DNA of 64,000 bases from a virus, in the IMG/VR virus record IMGVR_UViG_3300046804_005798, positions 1 through 64,000 of that record, one strand, 5' to 3'. The notes under the pieces were generated by a model, which worked only from the letters and a program-made list of their open reading frames with translations, made no database searches and was not told where the DNA came from. Position numbers and translations under genes: made by a program. Shown here in pieces: positions 2,585-10,251 of the stretch; the stretch's first letter is position 1, and every line of letters starts with the position of its first letter.

Positions 2585-2610
2585 AAAGCGTCCAAAAGGG
2601 CGCTTTTTTT
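2585..2610 (+). terminator. Terminator after the petF-hli-peroxiredoxin operon
   Basis: AAAGCGTCC, loop AAAA, GGGCGCTTT (9 pairs, one G-T) then seven T. Confidence 0.92.
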
Positions 2611-2617
2611 ATAAATA
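2610..2617 (+). promoter_or_regulatory. T4-type late promoter before the lysis-like cassette
   Basis: TATAAATA directly after the terminator T-run, 25 bases upstream of the ATG at 2643. Confidence 0.65.
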
Positions 2618-2642: not shown

Positions 2643-3314
2643 ATGACCTTAGATCTTCATAACTTTTTTAAGTATTATGATGATGGTAATTCGAATCACG
2701 TAGCAGCGGTTCAGTGGTTAGAGGATAACCTTCCCGCTCAATTCATGGACGATTCGGAGACAGAGTGGGTTTCAATTTTCAGAACAAAGCCACCAGCTCC
2801 AGAAGTTCTTGCAGTTCCATACTTTAACCAAGTAGATAACTACAGAGATGCACATAGAACTTGCAACTCTTCATCATGTGCTATGTGTCTTGCGTTCCTC
2901 AAGCCAGGAAGCATTAAAGGTGATGACGAATACGTTAAGAAAGTATTTGAGATTGGCGATACAACTGACCATGCCGTACAGACGAAGGTTCTGGCAGCTT
3001 ATGGTGTTAAGTCACACTTTAGTTACAATCTATCTTTTGCTGATATCGATAAAAGTCTGGACGCTGGGAAGCCCGTTGTTATTGGCATACTCCATAGGGG
3101 TTCTCTTTCTGCACCTACTGGTGGGCACATGTGTGTTGTAATTGGCAAGACACCAGATGGTAAAGGATATTATGTAAATGATCCATATGGATCATGTAAT
3201 GATAATTATACTGGGCCAGTAACAAATGGTAAGAAGACCATTTATACCAAAGCAATGCTCAAAGCACGTTGGTGCCCAGGAGGCAACGATGGATGGGGAA
3301 GAATTTTCGATTAA
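2643..3314 (+). CDS. C39-like cysteine peptidase with shared N-terminal module
   Basis: 223 residues. Residues 1-45 (LHNFFKxYDDxNxNHVxAVQWLE) also begin the lysozyme at 3413, so they probably form a common targeting domain. Residues 58-205 look like a Peptidase_C39_2 fold: CNSSSCAM with Cys74 in the catalytic position, GGHMCVVIG with His162 and VNDPYG with Asp180. These enzymes cleave peptides, in phages often cell-wall cross-links. The neighbouring lysozyme suggests a two-enzyme lysis pair; the substrate is inferred. The next small gene overlaps its end by 26 bases. Confidence 0.82.
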   Translation: MTLDLHNFFKYYDDGNSNHVAAVQWLEDNLPAQFMDDSETEWVSIFRTKPPAPEVLAVPYFNQVDNYRDAHRTCNSSSCAMCLAFLKPGSIKGDDEYVKKVFEIGDTTDHAVQTKVLAAYGVKSHFSYNLSFADIDKSLDAGKPVVIGILHRGSLSAPTGGHMCVVIGKTPDGKGYYVNDPYGSCNDNYTGPVTNGKKTIYTKAMLKARWCPGGNDGWGRIFD

Positions 3315-3426
3315 TTTTAAGAGGAAGATCTTACAAAGAATCAAAGATCTTACGAATCACGGCAAGCACGTAGAGGCAAATCAACTTTATCAAAAGTATT
3401 TCGGAGGGCAAAATGGCAAGGATTGA
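3289..3426 (+). CDS. Small helical protein between peptidase and lysozyme
   Basis: 45 residues (MDGEEFSINF...YFGGQNGKD), mostly charged helix. ATG 3289 is preceded by AGGAGG (3278-3283) at five bases, a strong ribosome site inside the peptidase gene, which decides this start. It overlaps both neighbours (26 and 14 bases), suggesting translational coupling. Function unknown; no transmembrane segment. Confidence 0.6.
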   Translation: MDGEEFSINFKRKILQRIKDLTNHGKHVEANQLYQKYFGGQNGKD

Positions 3427-4105
3427 TTTACACAACTTTTTTAAATTCTATGATGATAGAAATCCTAATCATGTTAAAGCAGTTCAGTGGTTAGAGGATC
3501 ATCTACCAAATAAGTTTCTTGAGGATAATGTAGACTGGGCTGAAATCTATCGAGGAAAAAAGTCTAGTGCTGCAGTAGCATCTACATCAACTTCTTCTGC
3601 TCCTGCAGCATCTTCTTCACCTGCATCTGTAGGTGGTGATGATGTGCCAATGATGGGAATTAAGTTAATCAAGGAATTTGAAGGTTGTAGGCTGGATGCT
3701 TATCCGGATCCCCTCAGTGGTAATTTACCAATCACTATTGGTTGGGGTTGCACCCGTAAAAAAGATGGATCACCATTTCATATGGGCGATAAAATTACCC
3801 AATCAGAAGCAGATGAACTTCTGATTGATGAGTGTAAAAAGCACTTTTTACCCTCACTTCGTAAAATTCCACACTGGGGAGAAATGTCAGATGGTAAACG
3901 CGGAGCACTTCTCAGTTTTGCTTATAATCTTGGCGCTGGTTTCTACGGCGGCGATAACTTTAATACTATTACTAAACGCTTGAAGAATAAAGAGTGGGAT
4001 TTAGTTCCCGATGCATTGTATCTCTACAGAAATCCTGGTTCAAATGTAGAAGCAGGACTTGCCCGTAGAAGAAAGGCTGAAGGTGAAGCTTGGAAAAAAG
4101 GTTAA
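3413..4105 (+). CDS. GH24 (T4-type) lysozyme with extra N-terminal domain
   Basis: 230 residues. Residues 1-47 match the N-terminus of the peptidase at 2643. A Ser/Ala-rich linker (51-75) leads to a muramidase domain: FEGCRLDAY with catalytic Glu90, PITIGWG, and the C-terminal GLARRRKAEGEAW typical of T4-like lysozymes. It hydrolyses the glycan strands of peptidoglycan and is the likely endolysin. GGAGG precedes the ATG. A putative holin follows at 4124. Confidence 0.93.
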   Translation: MARIDLHNFFKFYDDRNPNHVKAVQWLEDHLPNKFLEDNVDWAEIYRGKKSSAAVASTSTSSAPAASSSPASVGGDDVPMMGIKLIKEFEGCRLDAYPDPLSGNLPITIGWGCTRKKDGSPFHMGDKITQSEADELLIDECKKHFLPSLRKIPHWGEMSDGKRGALLSFAYNLGAGFYGGDNFNTITKRLKNKEWDLVPDALYLYRNPGSNVEAGLARRRKAEGEAWKKG

Positions 4106-4123: not shown

Positions 4124-4537
4124 ATGGACCCTCAAAAGAAAAGAGAAACTTGTATGAGTCAAATTATTCGTATTGCTATTTTGGGTTGGTCTGCCGCACT
4201 TCTTACGGCAAGTTATGCTGGGGCTCTTGCTAAAATGGACCCAACATTTATTGCTACTGTGTTTACTGCGTCCGCAGCAACATTTGGAATTAATACTATG
4301 AAGAAAGGTGGAGATGATGATGATGAAAAAAAGTCTGAAGCAAAAAGAGAGGAGTTTGTAGAAGCACCTCCAATACCTGCTGCAGAGGCAGTGGTAGAGG
4401 AAGTTGTTGAGCAAACAGTAAGTGAAGAACCATTAGTTCAAACTGGTTATAAAGAAGAAACTTCTCTTGAAGAAAGAGTTGAAGCTCTAGAAGCGAAGGT
4501 TGATGAAGAAAAACCCTATTCAAGAGGAGATCTCTGA
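4124..4537 (+). CDS. Membrane protein with acidic tail, holin candidate
   Basis: 137 residues (ATG 4154 is an alternative start). Two hydrophobic segments, about residues 13-35 and 39-57, are followed by Lys-Lys-Gly-Gly, a run of Asp, and a long acidic tail ending in a coiled-coil-like EERVEALEAKVDEE. Position right after the lysozyme and the two-segment layout suggest a class II-like holin, but the long acidic tail is unusual and no family is recognised. Confidence 0.7.
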   Translation: MDPQKKRETCMSQIIRIAILGWSAALLTASYAGALAKMDPTFIATVFTASAATFGINTMKKGGDDDDEKKSEAKREEFVEAPPIPAAEAVVEEVVEQTVSEEPLVQTGYKEETSLEERVEALEAKVDEEKPYSRGDL

Positions 4538-4653
4538 TGTCAAAATCTGCTAATAAAAGTAAAAAAGGTGGAGCGGGTTCTGCCAATAACAAAAAGCAAA
4601 ATTCTGGTAATGCCAATGCTAAAAAAGCAAAGAATGGTGGTAAGAAAAAGTGA
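4537..4653 (+). CDS. 38-residue Lys/Asn/Gly-rich basic peptide
   Basis: ATG 4537 overlaps the previous stop (TGATG). The peptide is almost entirely Lys, Asn, Gly, Ser and Ala, strongly basic and probably disordered. It directly follows a protein with an acidic tail, so electrostatic pairing is possible but unproven. Family not recognised. Confidence 0.55.
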   Translation: MSKSANKSKKGGAGSANNKKQNSGNANAKKAKNGGKKK

Positions 4654-4829
4654 TAGAATTTATCGCTTTTATGATTATAGGTTATGTGGAAATTTCTCCA
4701 GGTGAATGTCAAGTTGAATATCTTCGTTATAATGAAATACACTCACTAGTTGTACCATGTCAAGAGAATGGAACACTCCTAAAAGGGAGTGTTGGAATGC
4801 TCCAATCCACAAAATACTCCAAGCCATAG
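4650..4829 (+). CDS. Possible small protein, GTG start
   Basis: GTG 4650 overlaps the preceding stop (GTGA) and opens 59 codons starting MIEFIAFMIIGYVEISPG with two Cys later. It overlaps the gene at 4757 by 73 bases in another frame. Only one of the two may be real in the shared part; the coupling to the upstream stop is the main support. Confidence 0.4.
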   Translation: MIEFIAFMIIGYVEISPGECQVEYLRYNEIHSLVVPCQENGTLLKGSVGMLQSTKYSKP

Positions 4830-4957
4830 ACAATCACACCCGTCTTTTTATGGAGACGGGTGATTTTTGGCATGAAGAACAGGCCCAGATCTTGAGAAAA
4901 TATGTAAAAGATTTGAAAGTCTGGATACACAAAGAAGAAGGATGGTGGGATGAATGA
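4757..4957 (+). CDS. Conserved small helical protein
   Basis: 66 residues, Trp-rich, with a helical core (HKILQAIDNHTRLF...EEQAQILRKYVKDLKVWIHKEEG). It ends ATGA over the start of the next gene. The start is less sure than the C-terminal half, because the DNA for the first 15 codons also forms a perfect AACACTCC/GGGAGTGTT-type hairpin (about 4768-4787). Unknown function. Confidence 0.65.
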   Translation: MSREWNTPKRECWNAPIHKILQAIDNHTRLFMETGDFWHEEQAQILRKYVKDLKVWIHKEEGWWDE

Positions 4958-5700
4958 AAAAAATTCTCACAGCAATCGGTTTATCATTAAGTCTAACTCT
5001 TCCAGTATATGCTGATAAGTTGTTAAGCACACAACCCACAGTGAGACCATATAGTGCAGAAGCAATGGGTTGTATGATACTTTTGGAGTGTACTGAAGGT
5101 CTTGAAAAACTATCGACAGAATCAGAATTTTTAAAGAGTGAAGATTTTGCTCCATTTAGAGATGAAATTATTAGAGTTATAACTGCTCTCAATAAACTTG
5201 AAGTTCCTGTTTATGTCGCACCAGAAAGATATTTTACTCCAAGAACAGTAGGATTATACAAACCAAACTATAATCGTTTCTTCATTAATGAAATTCTTCT
5301 TAAAGATCCAAGAGAATTTTTAGGAACACTTCGTCACGAAGGTTGGCATACAGTTCAAGATTGTATGGGTGGTGGACTACAAACTTCATTTATGGCACAA
5401 GTACATCAGGATAGTGAGATACCTGCTTGGTTAATGAAGATGACTAAACTTACTTATGAATCGATGATGCAAAGTCGTGCAGTTCCATGGGAAGCAGATG
5501 CTAATTGGGCAGAAGAACAGTCAAATGTAACTGCTGAAAAATTAGAGATGTGTGCAAAAGGTCCCTTGTGGGATCAAATTCGTCCAACTCCTTTGACTAT
5601 GGATTGGTTGATTGGATGTGGATTTATGAAACCACAAGACGGTTTATACCCCTACTATCCAAACAAGAAAGTACAATATTGTACGGAAGGTAAATACTAG
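4954..5700 (+). CDS. Secreted HExxH zinc-metallopeptidase-like protein
   Basis: 248 residues. Residues 1-20 are a signal peptide (cleavage after VYA). LGTLRHEGWHTVQDC holds an HExxH zinc site (His128, Glu129, His132), and VPWEADANWAEE offers Glu180 as a third ligand, the gluzincin arrangement. Six or more Cys suggest disulfides in the periplasm. The gene lies next to lysis-like genes, so a role in the host envelope is plausible. The family is not recognised by name and the substrate is unknown. Confidence 0.72.
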   Translation: MKKILTAIGLSLSLTLPVYADKLLSTQPTVRPYSAEAMGCMILLECTEGLEKLSTESEFLKSEDFAPFRDEIIRVITALNKLEVPVYVAPERYFTPRTVGLYKPNYNRFFINEILLKDPREFLGTLRHEGWHTVQDCMGGGLQTSFMAQVHQDSEIPAWLMKMTKLTYESMMQSRAVPWEADANWAEEQSNVTAEKLEMCAKGPLWDQIRPTPLTMDWLIGCGFMKPQDGLYPYYPNKKVQYCTEGKY

Positions 5701-5718
5701 TAGTTGAATATAAAAAAA

Positions 5719-6192
5719 ATGAGTGAAGTTCAGTTCAAGAAGCACAGAGTATTCCGTGAAACAGATGCAGTTGTTTTCTATGATATATCGGTCGAGCATT
5801 CAAATGCTCAGGATCTGGTTGTTCACACTGGTCCGGCTATCAGTCCTCCTGATGATATTGTAGGAGCAAAACAATTTTATATTCATTATCACCAGGTAGA
5901 CCATAATCGTGTTCTATCTGGACTTCGCACGTTTGAACTTGTAAATCCAGAGTGGAGATACCCCTATCATATCGTCCATCTCAATCGTTCTTCTGGTGCT
6001 CTTGTCATTCCTAAGATGACTTATCATCGTTCATATTCTGGTGAAGATGGATCTATCGTGATTAACCAAGCAATCCGCGATGATGAGTTTAATCCAGAGA
6101 CAGAATTTGTTCCAGTATCTGCAGCAAAGAATCATGATCTTTATCACATTCTTGCACACGAAAAACCAGTTATTCATACCCTTGGAGAATAA
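5719..6192 (+). CDS. Conserved protein of unknown function, cupin-like composition
   Basis: 157 residues from ATG 5719 (an in-frame TTG at 5704 is less likely). Beta-rich with many His: YIHYHQVDHNRV near 55-66, YHIVHLN near 88, MTYHRS near 105, NHDLYHILAHEKPVIH at the end. The clustered His could bind metal as in cupins, but no canonical cupin motif is clear. The next small gene overlaps the stop by one base. Confidence 0.7.
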   Translation: MSEVQFKKHRVFRETDAVVFYDISVEHSNAQDLVVHTGPAISPPDDIVGAKQFYIHYHQVDHNRVLSGLRTFELVNPEWRYPYHIVHLNRSSGALVIPKMTYHRSYSGEDGSIVINQAIRDDEFNPETEFVPVSAAKNHDLYHILAHEKPVIHTLGE

Positions 6193-6597: not shown

Positions 6598-7269
6598 ATG
6601 AATAACTATTACACTTACGCATACTTGCGTGAAGATAAAACTCCCTATTACATCGGCAAGGGTAAAGGTAATAGAGTATATTCTAAAGGTAGAAGAGTAT
6701 TTTTACCTCCTAAAGATAGGTCTAGAATTATATTTCTCAAACAAAATCTTACTGAAGATGAAGCATTTAAGCACGAAATTTATATGATTGGTGTGTTTGG
6801 TAGGAAAGATCTTGGAACTGGTATTCTTCACAATAAAACCAATGGTGGCGATGGATTGAAAAATCCTTCAGAAAAAACCAAAGAAAAATTAAGCAAAGCA
6901 CGACAAGGAAAACCTCTTTCTGAAGAACATAAAAGAAAAATAAGTGAAAAGATGAAAGGTAGAATTCTTTCAGAAGAGCATAAAGAAAAACTGAGTGAAG
7001 TAAAACGGGGTATAATTTTTTCAGAAGAAAGTAAAAGAAAAATGAGTGAATCTCAAAAGGGTAAAACTCTATCAGAAGAACATAAGAAAAAAATAGGAGA
7101 ATCTGGAAGGGGAAGAATACATTCTGATGAAAGTAAAAAGAAAATGAGCGAAAAACTTAAAGGGAAAACTCTTTCAGAAGAACATAAAAGAAAAATTAGT
7201 GAAAAACTTAAAGGGAGAACTCTCTCAGAAGAGCATAAAAGAAAAATTGTTAGACGAAAATCTAAATAG
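6598..7269 (+). CDS. GIY-YIG homing endonuclease with NUMOD3 repeats
   Basis: 223 residues. N-terminal GIY-YIG nuclease: [20 protein letters not shown] with the motif tyrosines, Arg in GNRVY, Glu in FKHEIYMI and Asn in NKTNGGDG. From about residue 90 come eight consecutive NUMOD3-type DNA-binding repeats built on [15 protein letters not shown], an unusually long array. It cuts DNA to promote its own spread; the target is unknown. Freestanding, not in an intron. Confidence 0.93.
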
Positions 7270-7818: not shown

Positions 7819-8265
7819 ATGAAACACATTCACCATATTGTGCCTAAACATATGGGAGGCACGGATGACCCTATCAATCTTATAGAGTTGAGTGTAGAAG
7901 AACACGCAGAAGCACATAGAAAACTCTATGAGGAATATGGTAATGAATATGATAGGATTGCTTATGAAGCACTATCGGGAATGATAAAAAAGGAAGAAGT
8001 AATACAACAAGTATTGAGTGAGGCAGGAAAAAGAGGAGGTGCTCCAAAAGGTAGAGTTCCTTGGAATAAAGGAAAGAAAGGAGTTCAAAAAAATCCTTAT
8101 CTTGTTGAACTTAATAAAAGCAGAAAAGGAAAATCTATTAGTGATGAAGCAAAAGCAAAAGTTAGTGCTGCTAATAAAGGAAGAAAAAGACCAGATTTGG
8201 TAGAAAGAAATAAAAAAAGAAAAGGAACCTATATAAGCAGGGATGATAAAGGAAGATTTATATGA
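7819..8265 (+). CDS. HNH homing endonuclease with NUMOD3 repeats
   Basis: 148 residues. Compact HNH at the very N-terminus: HIHHIVPKHMGGTDDPINLIELSVEEHAEAH (catalytic His-His, Asn, His). The C-terminal half has NUMOD3-like GKKGVQKNP and GKSISDEAKAKVSAANKG repeats for DNA binding. It overlaps the next gene by ATGA. Freestanding mobile gene behind its own late promoter. Confidence 0.9.
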   Translation: MKHIHHIVPKHMGGTDDPINLIELSVEEHAEAHRKLYEEYGNEYDRIAYEALSGMIKKEEVIQQVLSEAGKRGGAPKGRVPWNKGKKGVQKNPYLVELNKSRKGKSISDEAKAKVSAANKGRKRPDLVERNKKRKGTYISRDDKGRFI

Positions 8266-9585: not shown

Positions 9586-10251
9586 ATGAAATATTATACT
9601 TATGCATATTTGTGTGAAGATGGAACACCTTATTATATTGGCAAAGGGAAAGAAAATAGAATATACAAAAAACATATTGTTCCAATTCCCACAGAGGATA
9701 GAATTTTATTTTTGAAGAAAAATATTTCTGAAGAAGATGCAATTAAACACGAAGTTTATATGATTTCAATATTTGGTAGAAAAAATAATGGAACTGGAAT
9801 TTTGAGAAATCTTACTGATGGTGGCGAAGGAAGTTCTGGAAGAAAATTATCAAAAGAAACTATTGAAAGAATGAGTATTGCTGCTAAAAATCGCAAGATA
9901 AGTGATGAAGGACGAAAAAAATTAAGTGAAAGAAGTAAAAGAATGGGAAAATGGAAAGGTGAAGATAATCCAGGATCAAAAATGAAGGGATTAAAAAGAG
10001 ATAAACCTTTCACTGAAGAACATAAGAAAAAAATTTCATTATCAAATACTGGAAAAAAACATAATAGAGACATTAAACCATTGACAAATTGCAGAAAAAT
10101 AAAAGTTTATTTTGTTGATGGTTCTATTATTGAATGTTGGGGTATTAGAGAATTTGAAAGGCAATACGGATATTTACCAAAACCAGATAATAGAACTGGA
10201 AAATTTTATGGTAAAGCAAAAAATATATTAAAAGTAGAAACTATTTTGTAA
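9586..10251 (+). CDS. GIY-YIG homing endonuclease with NUMOD3 repeats
   Basis: 221 residues. [31 protein letters not shown] and NLTDGGEG give the GIY-YIG core, close in sequence to the enzyme at 6598. Two or three NUMOD3-like repeats (RKLSKETIERMS, KPFTEEHKKKISLSNTGKK) are followed by a C-terminal domain (KVYFVDGSIIECWGIREFER) resembling a modular DNA-binding element. It is inserted on the plus strand between two minus-strand genes and overlaps the 3' end of the next by 11 bases. Confidence 0.92.
   Translation: MKYYTYAYLCEDGTPYYIGKGKENRIYKKHIVPIPTEDRILFLKKNISEEDAIKHEVYMISIFGRKNNGTGILRNLTDGGEGSSGRKLSKETIERMSIAAKNRKISDEGRKKLSERSKRMGKWKGEDNPGSKMKGLKRDKPFTEEHKKKISLSNTGKKHNRDIKPLTNCRKIKVYFVDGSIIECWGIREFERQYGYLPKPDNRTGKFYGKAKNILKVETIL

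Follow-up and report, generated by a model that had tools for sequence, protein, structure and literature searches.

A putative exported zinc peptidase, probably of cyanobacterial origin, encoded beside the lysis genes of a T4-like cyanophage

The window, meaning the whole stretch of 64,000 nucleotides analysed here (positions 1 to 64,000 of IMG/VR record IMGVR_UViG_3300046804_005798), is part of a T4-like cyanophage (a 72,883-base virus record). At the DNA level the named phages closest to it are DSL-LC03, DSL-LC02 and S-SRM01. As DSL-LC02 and DSL-LC03 come from Dishui Lake, the clade of the window is presumably a freshwater one. The window carries a metallopeptidase-like gene preceded by two endolysin genes, a gene for a putative holin and two small ORFs (Table 1). 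An earlier note on this DNA had read the metallopeptidase-like ORF as containing a signal peptide, an HEGWH motif, a downstream Glu and several Cys, and all of these were confirmed, the Glu being E180.

Table 1. Positions in the window of the metallopeptidase-like gene, its predicted features and the genes upstream of it
Feature	Position	Strand	Remarks
Late-promoter-like site TATAAATA	2610..2617	+	25 bases before the first endolysin gene
C39-like peptidase endolysin gene, first of the cassette	2643..3314	+	Pfam PF13529, PHROG 10051
Phage lysozyme endolysin gene	3413..4105	+	Pfam PF00959
DUF6450 protein gene, putatively holin-like	4124..4537	+	Hydrophobic at about residues 10-35 and 40-56 (the second weak), charged tail
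Small ORF, cassette member	4650..4829	+	N-terminal hydrophobic segment
66-aa ORF	4757..4957	+	4-base overlap with the metallopeptidase start
Metallopeptidase-like gene	4954..5700	+	ATG start, 248 aa, end coordinate includes the stop; PHROG 591 / T4-like GC 945
Predicted signal peptide, residues 1-20	4954..5013	+	Predicted from sequence; A20 invariant in the 8-row alignment
HEGWH, residues 128-132	5335..5349	+	Putative zinc ligands H128 and H132, putative catalytic E129; in 196/196 distinct relatives
C137, proposed disulfide partner of C200	5362..5364	+	194/196
Y168, candidate transition-state Tyr	5455..5457	+	196/196 distinct relatives
E180, proposed third zinc ligand, in PWEADANWA	5491..5493	+	196/196; within model helix 174-187
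C200, proposed disulfide partner of C137	5551..5553	+	194/196

The N-terminus of the product reads MKKILTAIGLSLSLTLPVYA followed by D at the predicted cleavage site, with a positive n-region, hydrophobic residues 3-20 (maximum mean KD 1.74) and an AxA-type end at residue 20. A crude signal-peptide rule was positive for 192 of 196 distinct relatives and also for 1177 of 3920 shuffled N-termini; as about 30% of the shuffled N-termini pass, the rule is supportive rather than strong. The protein contains six Cys residues, at positions 40, 46, 137, 200, 222 and 243. A C-terminal tail (residues 227-248, positions 5632-5697) holds C243, and C222 lies just upstream of it; the tail with C243, and C222, are missing from the marine copies in the 8-row alignment, and six Cys occur in 51 of the 196 relatives. 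Compared with PHROG 591, the clade of the window adds a C-terminal extension and two Cys.

Relatives were collected as the best 80 loci per query and were seeded by short peptides, some of which overlap the motif, so that the sample leans towards conservation. The 247 loci gave 246 matching frames (none in the DSL-LC03 locus), and 245 of these were near full length, L231 (162 aa) being dropped for its length. HEGWH was present exactly once per protein in all 245. The earlier note had made its reading depend on conservation of the zinc residues in homologues; H128, E129, H132 and E180 were invariant in 196/196 distinct relatives, as were G130, W131, Q135, D136, Y168, C40 and C46. C137 and C200 were both replaced by Ala in the same two relatives (L071 and L079). 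That both Cys are lost together suggests a disulfide between them, although L071 and L079 are close kin and perhaps reflect one event; the diverged paralogue of ACG-2014f likewise has no Cys pair matching C137 and C200. Twenty comparisons, pairing the window with every fourth of 80 close relatives, gave dN/dS ratios (NG86) of 0.062-0.15, which indicates purifying selection.

An AlphaFold2 model based on a 105-row alignment (pLDDT 85.9, pTM 0.80) contained a helix at residues 63-81, strands at 86-89, 100-103 and 108-112, a helix at 119-138 carrying HEGWH and a helix at 174-187 carrying E180, an order that we take to be the one expected for a gluzincin-type zincin. Structure prediction, which the earlier note had proposed as a check, returned a zincin-type layout in a confident model, while the matches to solved structures were weak (Z 7.0 at best). 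In Foldseek against solved structures the top rows were mostly zincins, with a best E of 0.13. VIA-align 2 placed IrrE/PprI at the top (Z 7.0, 6.8 and 6.5), followed by a regulator from Mycobacterium (6.4), lethal factor (at most 5.9), ArdC (5.6), a DPC-repair protease (4.7), PPEP-3 (4.4) and selecase (4.0); all these values possibly reflect a mere common arrangement. Against viral protein models there were eight matches at E 0.001 or better, and the named ones were all Synechococcus phage proteins.

The best structural neighbours, IrrE/PprI (3dte, Z 7.0, rmsd 3.9, 91 residues aligned, core only), are cytoplasmic regulators with HExxH and a downstream Glu, and IrrE/ImmA-type Pfam models were absent from the matches of the window protein and of the family alignment up to E 1. 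SprT-like/Spartan proteins, likewise zincins with HExxH (Z 4.7 for 6mdx, an entry titled protease-dependent DPC repair), act on DNA-linked proteins, whereas the window protein carries a predicted export signal. M34-type zincins, namely the lethal factor catalytic domain and PPEP, have a similar layout of zinc helix and Glu helix (5d1s, Z 5.5, rmsd 4.6, 120 aligned; 9g3t, Z 4.4), and in these families a Tyr precedes the Glu. The likeness is confined to the core fold; the targeting and binding parts of the M34-type proteins are missing from the window protein, and a profile search of solved-structure sequences gave no M34 match up to E 10. KaiC, cohesin, a calcium-binding adapter and other entries from that search, at E 0.2 or worse, were rejected.

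The window protein matched PHROG 591 (E 2.1e-53, residues 28-226, profile positions 27-225 of 226), a gene common to S-RIM8, S-SM2, Syn33 and S-RSM4 and labelled T4-like GC 945 in GenBank notes. The earlier description of an unrecognised family thus holds for Pfam and NCBIfam, which, like PADLOC, returned no family for the window protein, and fails for the phage orthologue collections. Sub-threshold matches to Glyco_trans_1_2, EntV, Peptidase_M50B and Peptidase_Mx1 were taken as chance. Among the listed records the annotation was mostly 'hypothetical protein', with a few entries as 'proteolytic enzyme' or 'SprT-like domain-containing protein Spartan'. SprT/Spartan was rejected as a family label, PF10263 being unmatched by the window protein and by eight alignment members; two host paralogues matched PF10263, only below the cut-off. 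Two further cyanophage groups, PHROG 16003 and PHROG 3541 (for example S-CREM2 gp108 and ACG-2014f gp089), share HExxHxxQD, ExEA and an N-terminal export-like segment with the window protein, and are shorter, remote paralogues. The S-CREM2 paralogue is annotated 'metallopeptidase', a word absent from the available text of PMC10665884, and its ORF108 (65598-66203) is absent from the 52-protein virion list in Table 3 as available from that paper.

A description of this family was not found in the available parts of PMC4949707, PMC10665884, PMC10343443, PMC3037559, PMC2984593 and PMC4508852, and '945' does not occur in the portion of PMC3037559 at hand. The enzyme of PMC10343443 is, from the sections available, an M23 protein and was set aside as unrelated to the PHROG 591 protein. 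HExxH ORFans have been predicted in ocean data, possibly including this family unnamed (PMC4508852, in part). S-RSM4 has the gene, and the exoproteome of WH8102 after infection with this phage has been described in a text whose available part mentions no phage protein in it; we regard this as neutral evidence (PMC4949707).

By tblastn, the peptidase gene was detected in 366 of 50,697 phage records, all cyanophages, as a count of sequence matches rather than of motif-bearing copies; three queries gave the same counts. This contradicts the earlier statement that phage-encoded exported metalloproteases are rare. The records with the peptidase comprised 301 named Synechococcus phage, 61 named Cyanophage and four named Prochlorococcus phage, as against 373, 61 and 24 for the yardstick gp6 of Syn33. 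The skew towards Synechococcus over Prochlorococcus corresponds to an odds ratio of 25 (Fisher p 1e-11), with the records being non-independent and the gp6 control counted by name and unmatched. As far as listed, Syn1 and Syn33, whose hosts are Synechococcus, account for the four Prochlorococcus-named records with two accessions apiece. Diverged Prochlorococcus-phage copies were sought with two more PHROG 591 queries and a host homologue, and the number of such records stayed at four; the host-homologue query matched 406 phage records, also reaching other paralogues, for instance in ACG-2014f and S-CREM2. Cyanophages P-TIM40 (host NATL2A) and P-RSM1 (host MIT9303) carry the peptidase, and the gene is thus not closed to Prochlorococcus phages. 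Copies more than 60% identical to the clade of the window were absent from the phage records. For a common gene entered largely as 'hypothetical protein', the name host-derived exported zinc peptidase would define a clear enzyme to test.

In the clade of the window the genes keep a fixed order, from the C39 endolysin through lysozyme, DUF6450, the small ORF and the 66-aa ORF to the peptidase. The two hydrophobic segments and charged tail of the DUF6450 protein are what would be expected of a class II holin. Within the best 80 loci (52 distinct peptidases, close kin, 82-91% identical to the window), C39, lysozyme and DUF6450 were all upstream of the peptidase in 35/35 loci with at least 5 kb upstream. 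Where at least 900 bases were present upstream, DUF6450 lay within 1.2 kb of the peptidase in 73 of 74 loci and the 66-aa ORF adjoined it in all 74. Of 50 loci, 43 had TAAATA no more than 150 bases from the C39 gene, and NATAAATA is reported as a late promoter of cyanophage S-PM2 in the available part of PMC2984593. TAAATA-type sites were also found inside the cassettes (28 in 139,555 bases), which weakens the case for transcription of the cassette as one unit. A variable stretch of more than 1.5 kb separates lysozyme and DUF6450 in 11 of 35 loci (L003, L011, L013 and others); the corresponding place in DSL-LC03 (L083:3576-5225) is occupied by a gene whose annotation reads autotransporter beta-barrel protein.

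The cassette also occurs without the peptidase, in the two cultured phages closest to the window by DNA. In DSL-LC03 every cassette gene from C39 to the 66-aa ORF is there, lysozyme, DUF6450 and the small ORF included, as is the ORF located after the peptidase in the window; the peptidase was not found by tblastn in this stretch. DSL-LC02 keeps C39, lysozyme and DUF6450, and its annotated stretch has no peptidase-sized gene between the ORF of 66-aa size and the genes that come next. At least these two phages thus do not need the enzyme for lysis, and the cassette persists whereas the peptidase gene is gained or lost. The small ORF, the 66-aa ORF and the peptidase-following ORF of DSL-LC03 lie on the strand opposite to the endolysins; this arrangement, with the peptidase missing from the interval between the latter two ORFs (L083:6213-6728), is a gain or loss accompanied by inversion.

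Conversely, the cassette was not found near marine copies of the peptidase. C39, lysozyme and DUF6450 were detected at E 1e-5 in 0/160 loci from the S-RIM8 and Syn33 queries (the best 80 loci per query, 139 distinct proteins, many flanks shorter than 3 kb). The commonest neighbours in these 160 loci were GC218 (65), GC219 (49), GC943 (45) and a 'plasmid stability protein' ORF (44), followed by gp5 (29), CP12 (21) and cpeT (20); the marine copies sit among cpeT, CP12, petE, PTOX, talC, zwf and gnd.

A genome scan gave six confirmed loci, one of them in Aphanocapsa feldmannii. The Aphanocapsa homologue (L253:7575-8363) was 50% identical to the window over a span of 48 residues, and its neighbouring frames look chromosomal by eye. 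The other five loci may be cyanophage sequence inside bacterial assemblies, as is probable for the PHROG 591-like genes of L248-L252, whose contigs bear the titles Proteobacteria, Nonlabens, Formosa and Bacteroidetes. The phage profile matched 9 of 292 cyanobacterial genomes at E 0.01; a profile rebuilt from host and phage rows matched 66 of the 292 at E 1e-4, with two or more genes in several of them, a count taken at the E cut-off, weakest matches included, from a profile drawing on some of the same genomes. Host and phage proteins have in common the pattern HExxHxxQxC, 41-70 residues, ExEA and then a Cys, and the host homologues also have N-terminal hydrophobic segments. Overall identity of these cyanobacterial proteins to the window protein is low, some genomes hold paralogues, and the host family has no name. 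Among 30 loci from the profile search, HExxH was present in 29 and HExxHxxQxC in 28, the exceptions being L287 and L284; L287 is a decayed host homologue, interrupted by several stops, in a single cyanobacterial genome. Of 51 superfamily rows, 48 have a Tyr at a distance of 6-15 residues ahead of the Glu, where about 29% would be expected; the rows behind the Tyr, Cys and spacing counts were chosen by HExxH-type patterns, and the rate of motif loss cannot be read from them.

In an unrooted tree of the 51 rows, 17 PHROG 591 rows formed one side of a branch (92/80) and joined the Aphanocapsa gene (100/94) inside the host genes, while two other cyanophage paralogues of the PHROG 16003/3541 type were placed elsewhere on long branches. 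The donor lineage is unsure because long branches meet in the tree. From these sequences, transfer from host to phage is probably the right direction and is the simplest reading; the unrooted tree would also fit the reverse. Comparison of host gene neighbourhoods showed no shared pathway. At three host loci (L310, L312 and L313) an S41-type protease gene, identified by Pfam for L310 and by N-terminal likeness for L312 and L313, is close to the homologue or profile match; at L310 the paralogue site is flanked by this S41 protease gene and a gene for a transcription-repair coupling factor.

The conserved zinc residues, the predicted signal peptide and the zincin-like model back the earlier proposal of a secreted HExxH metallopeptidase-like protein, and it is probable, as judged from sequence and model, that export, zinc site and peptidase nature all apply together. 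The explanation that we favour, tentatively, is a host-derived exported zinc peptidase of gluzincin-like type that would act on an envelope or lumen protein, perhaps late in infection. H128, H132 and E180 would hold the zinc and E129 would activate water. The ancestor would be an exported cyanobacterial protein, and the phage enzyme would leave the cytoplasm by the host Sec route, held together by a C137-C200 disulfide and perhaps also by C40-C46. In the clade of the window its production would be late, and its substrate would be a protein of the periplasm, the outer membrane or the thylakoid lumen. In that clade the peptidase might loosen the outer envelope, with the holin and endolysins dealing with the inner membrane and the wall. 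Such an accessory role in opening the envelope is our best single guess for the clade of the window, unlikely as it is when taken by itself and made less probable by the two DSL phages, and housekeeping in the lumen or periplasm is about as likely. The action on the host envelope suggested in the earlier note would fit the position of the gene in this clade; two near relatives manage with no peptidase. A lysis role is not obligatory in this clade, and for the marine relatives such a role is less certain. A stronger version would have some cyanophages using a captured exported peptidase in place of or beside a spanin, through late proteolysis of the outer envelope. The persistence of the cassette in DSL-LC02 and DSL-LC03 in the absence of the gene makes this version less probable, and we consider it a long shot; if true, it would be a new way of completing lysis of Gram-negative-type cells, by proteolysis rather than membrane fusion. 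The gene at any rate raises the testable question of whether proteolysis is a means by which some cyanophages breach the outer envelope. New in this analysis are the link to an unnamed exported host family, the joint Cys loss, the host skew and the neighbourhood of lysis genes, which one clade conserves and which is not obligatory.

An auxiliary protease of host physiology, which would work in the lumen or periplasm to maintain or remodel photosynthetic or nutrient-uptake proteins and would replace or boost a host paralogue, is about as possible as the accessory envelope role, and by itself still unlikely. Cyanobacterial signal peptides serve the thylakoid lumen too. The host-derived position of the gene in the tree, the metabolic neighbours of the marine copies listed above, the S41-type protease genes near host homologues, the tracking of Synechococcus rather than Prochlorococcus records and the absence of the gene from two lake phages with a lysis cassette all argue for such a protease; however, the neighbours vary by phage lineage, so that no single pathway partner emerges, and in the clade of the window it is lysis genes that adjoin the peptidase. 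Superinfection exclusion or receptor shaving, in which surface or porin proteins would be removed to block a second phage or free progeny from debris, is improbable. The predicted export signal would suit it, as would the occurrence of the gene, common in Synechococcus myoviruses and patchy among close relatives; accessory competition genes often show such patchiness. The context in the clade of the window is nevertheless late-type rather than early, and the exclusion of other phages suggested in the earlier note gained no specific support, PADLOC holding no matching defence model. It is similarly improbable that the product is an exported zinc-binding factor without proteolytic activity, such as an inhibitor, a sensor or a structural protein. 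HExxH proteins that are not peptidases exist, an oxygenase (8s5f, Z 4.7) is in the structure list and the fold matches are weak, but the catalytic Glu of HExxH is invariant in the relatives and the Tyr precedes the third ligand in nearly all superfamily rows, which argue for the exported peptidase.

Several other features of the region were observed. The two endolysins begin with a similar module of about 47 residues, near 60% identical in DSL-LC03 cross-hits, and PHROG 3617 covers both as one 405-residue protein, which points to an endolysin that was split or fused and whose N-terminal module is repeated. Directly after the peptidase, positions 5704-6192 matched PHROG 9052 'hemagglutinin', a match not found in the 80 clade loci at E 1e-5. 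Four homing/HNH-type endonuclease-like genes (841-1341, 6598-7269, 7819-8265 and 9586-10251) lie within 10 kb, and two of them are related (PHROG 15526).
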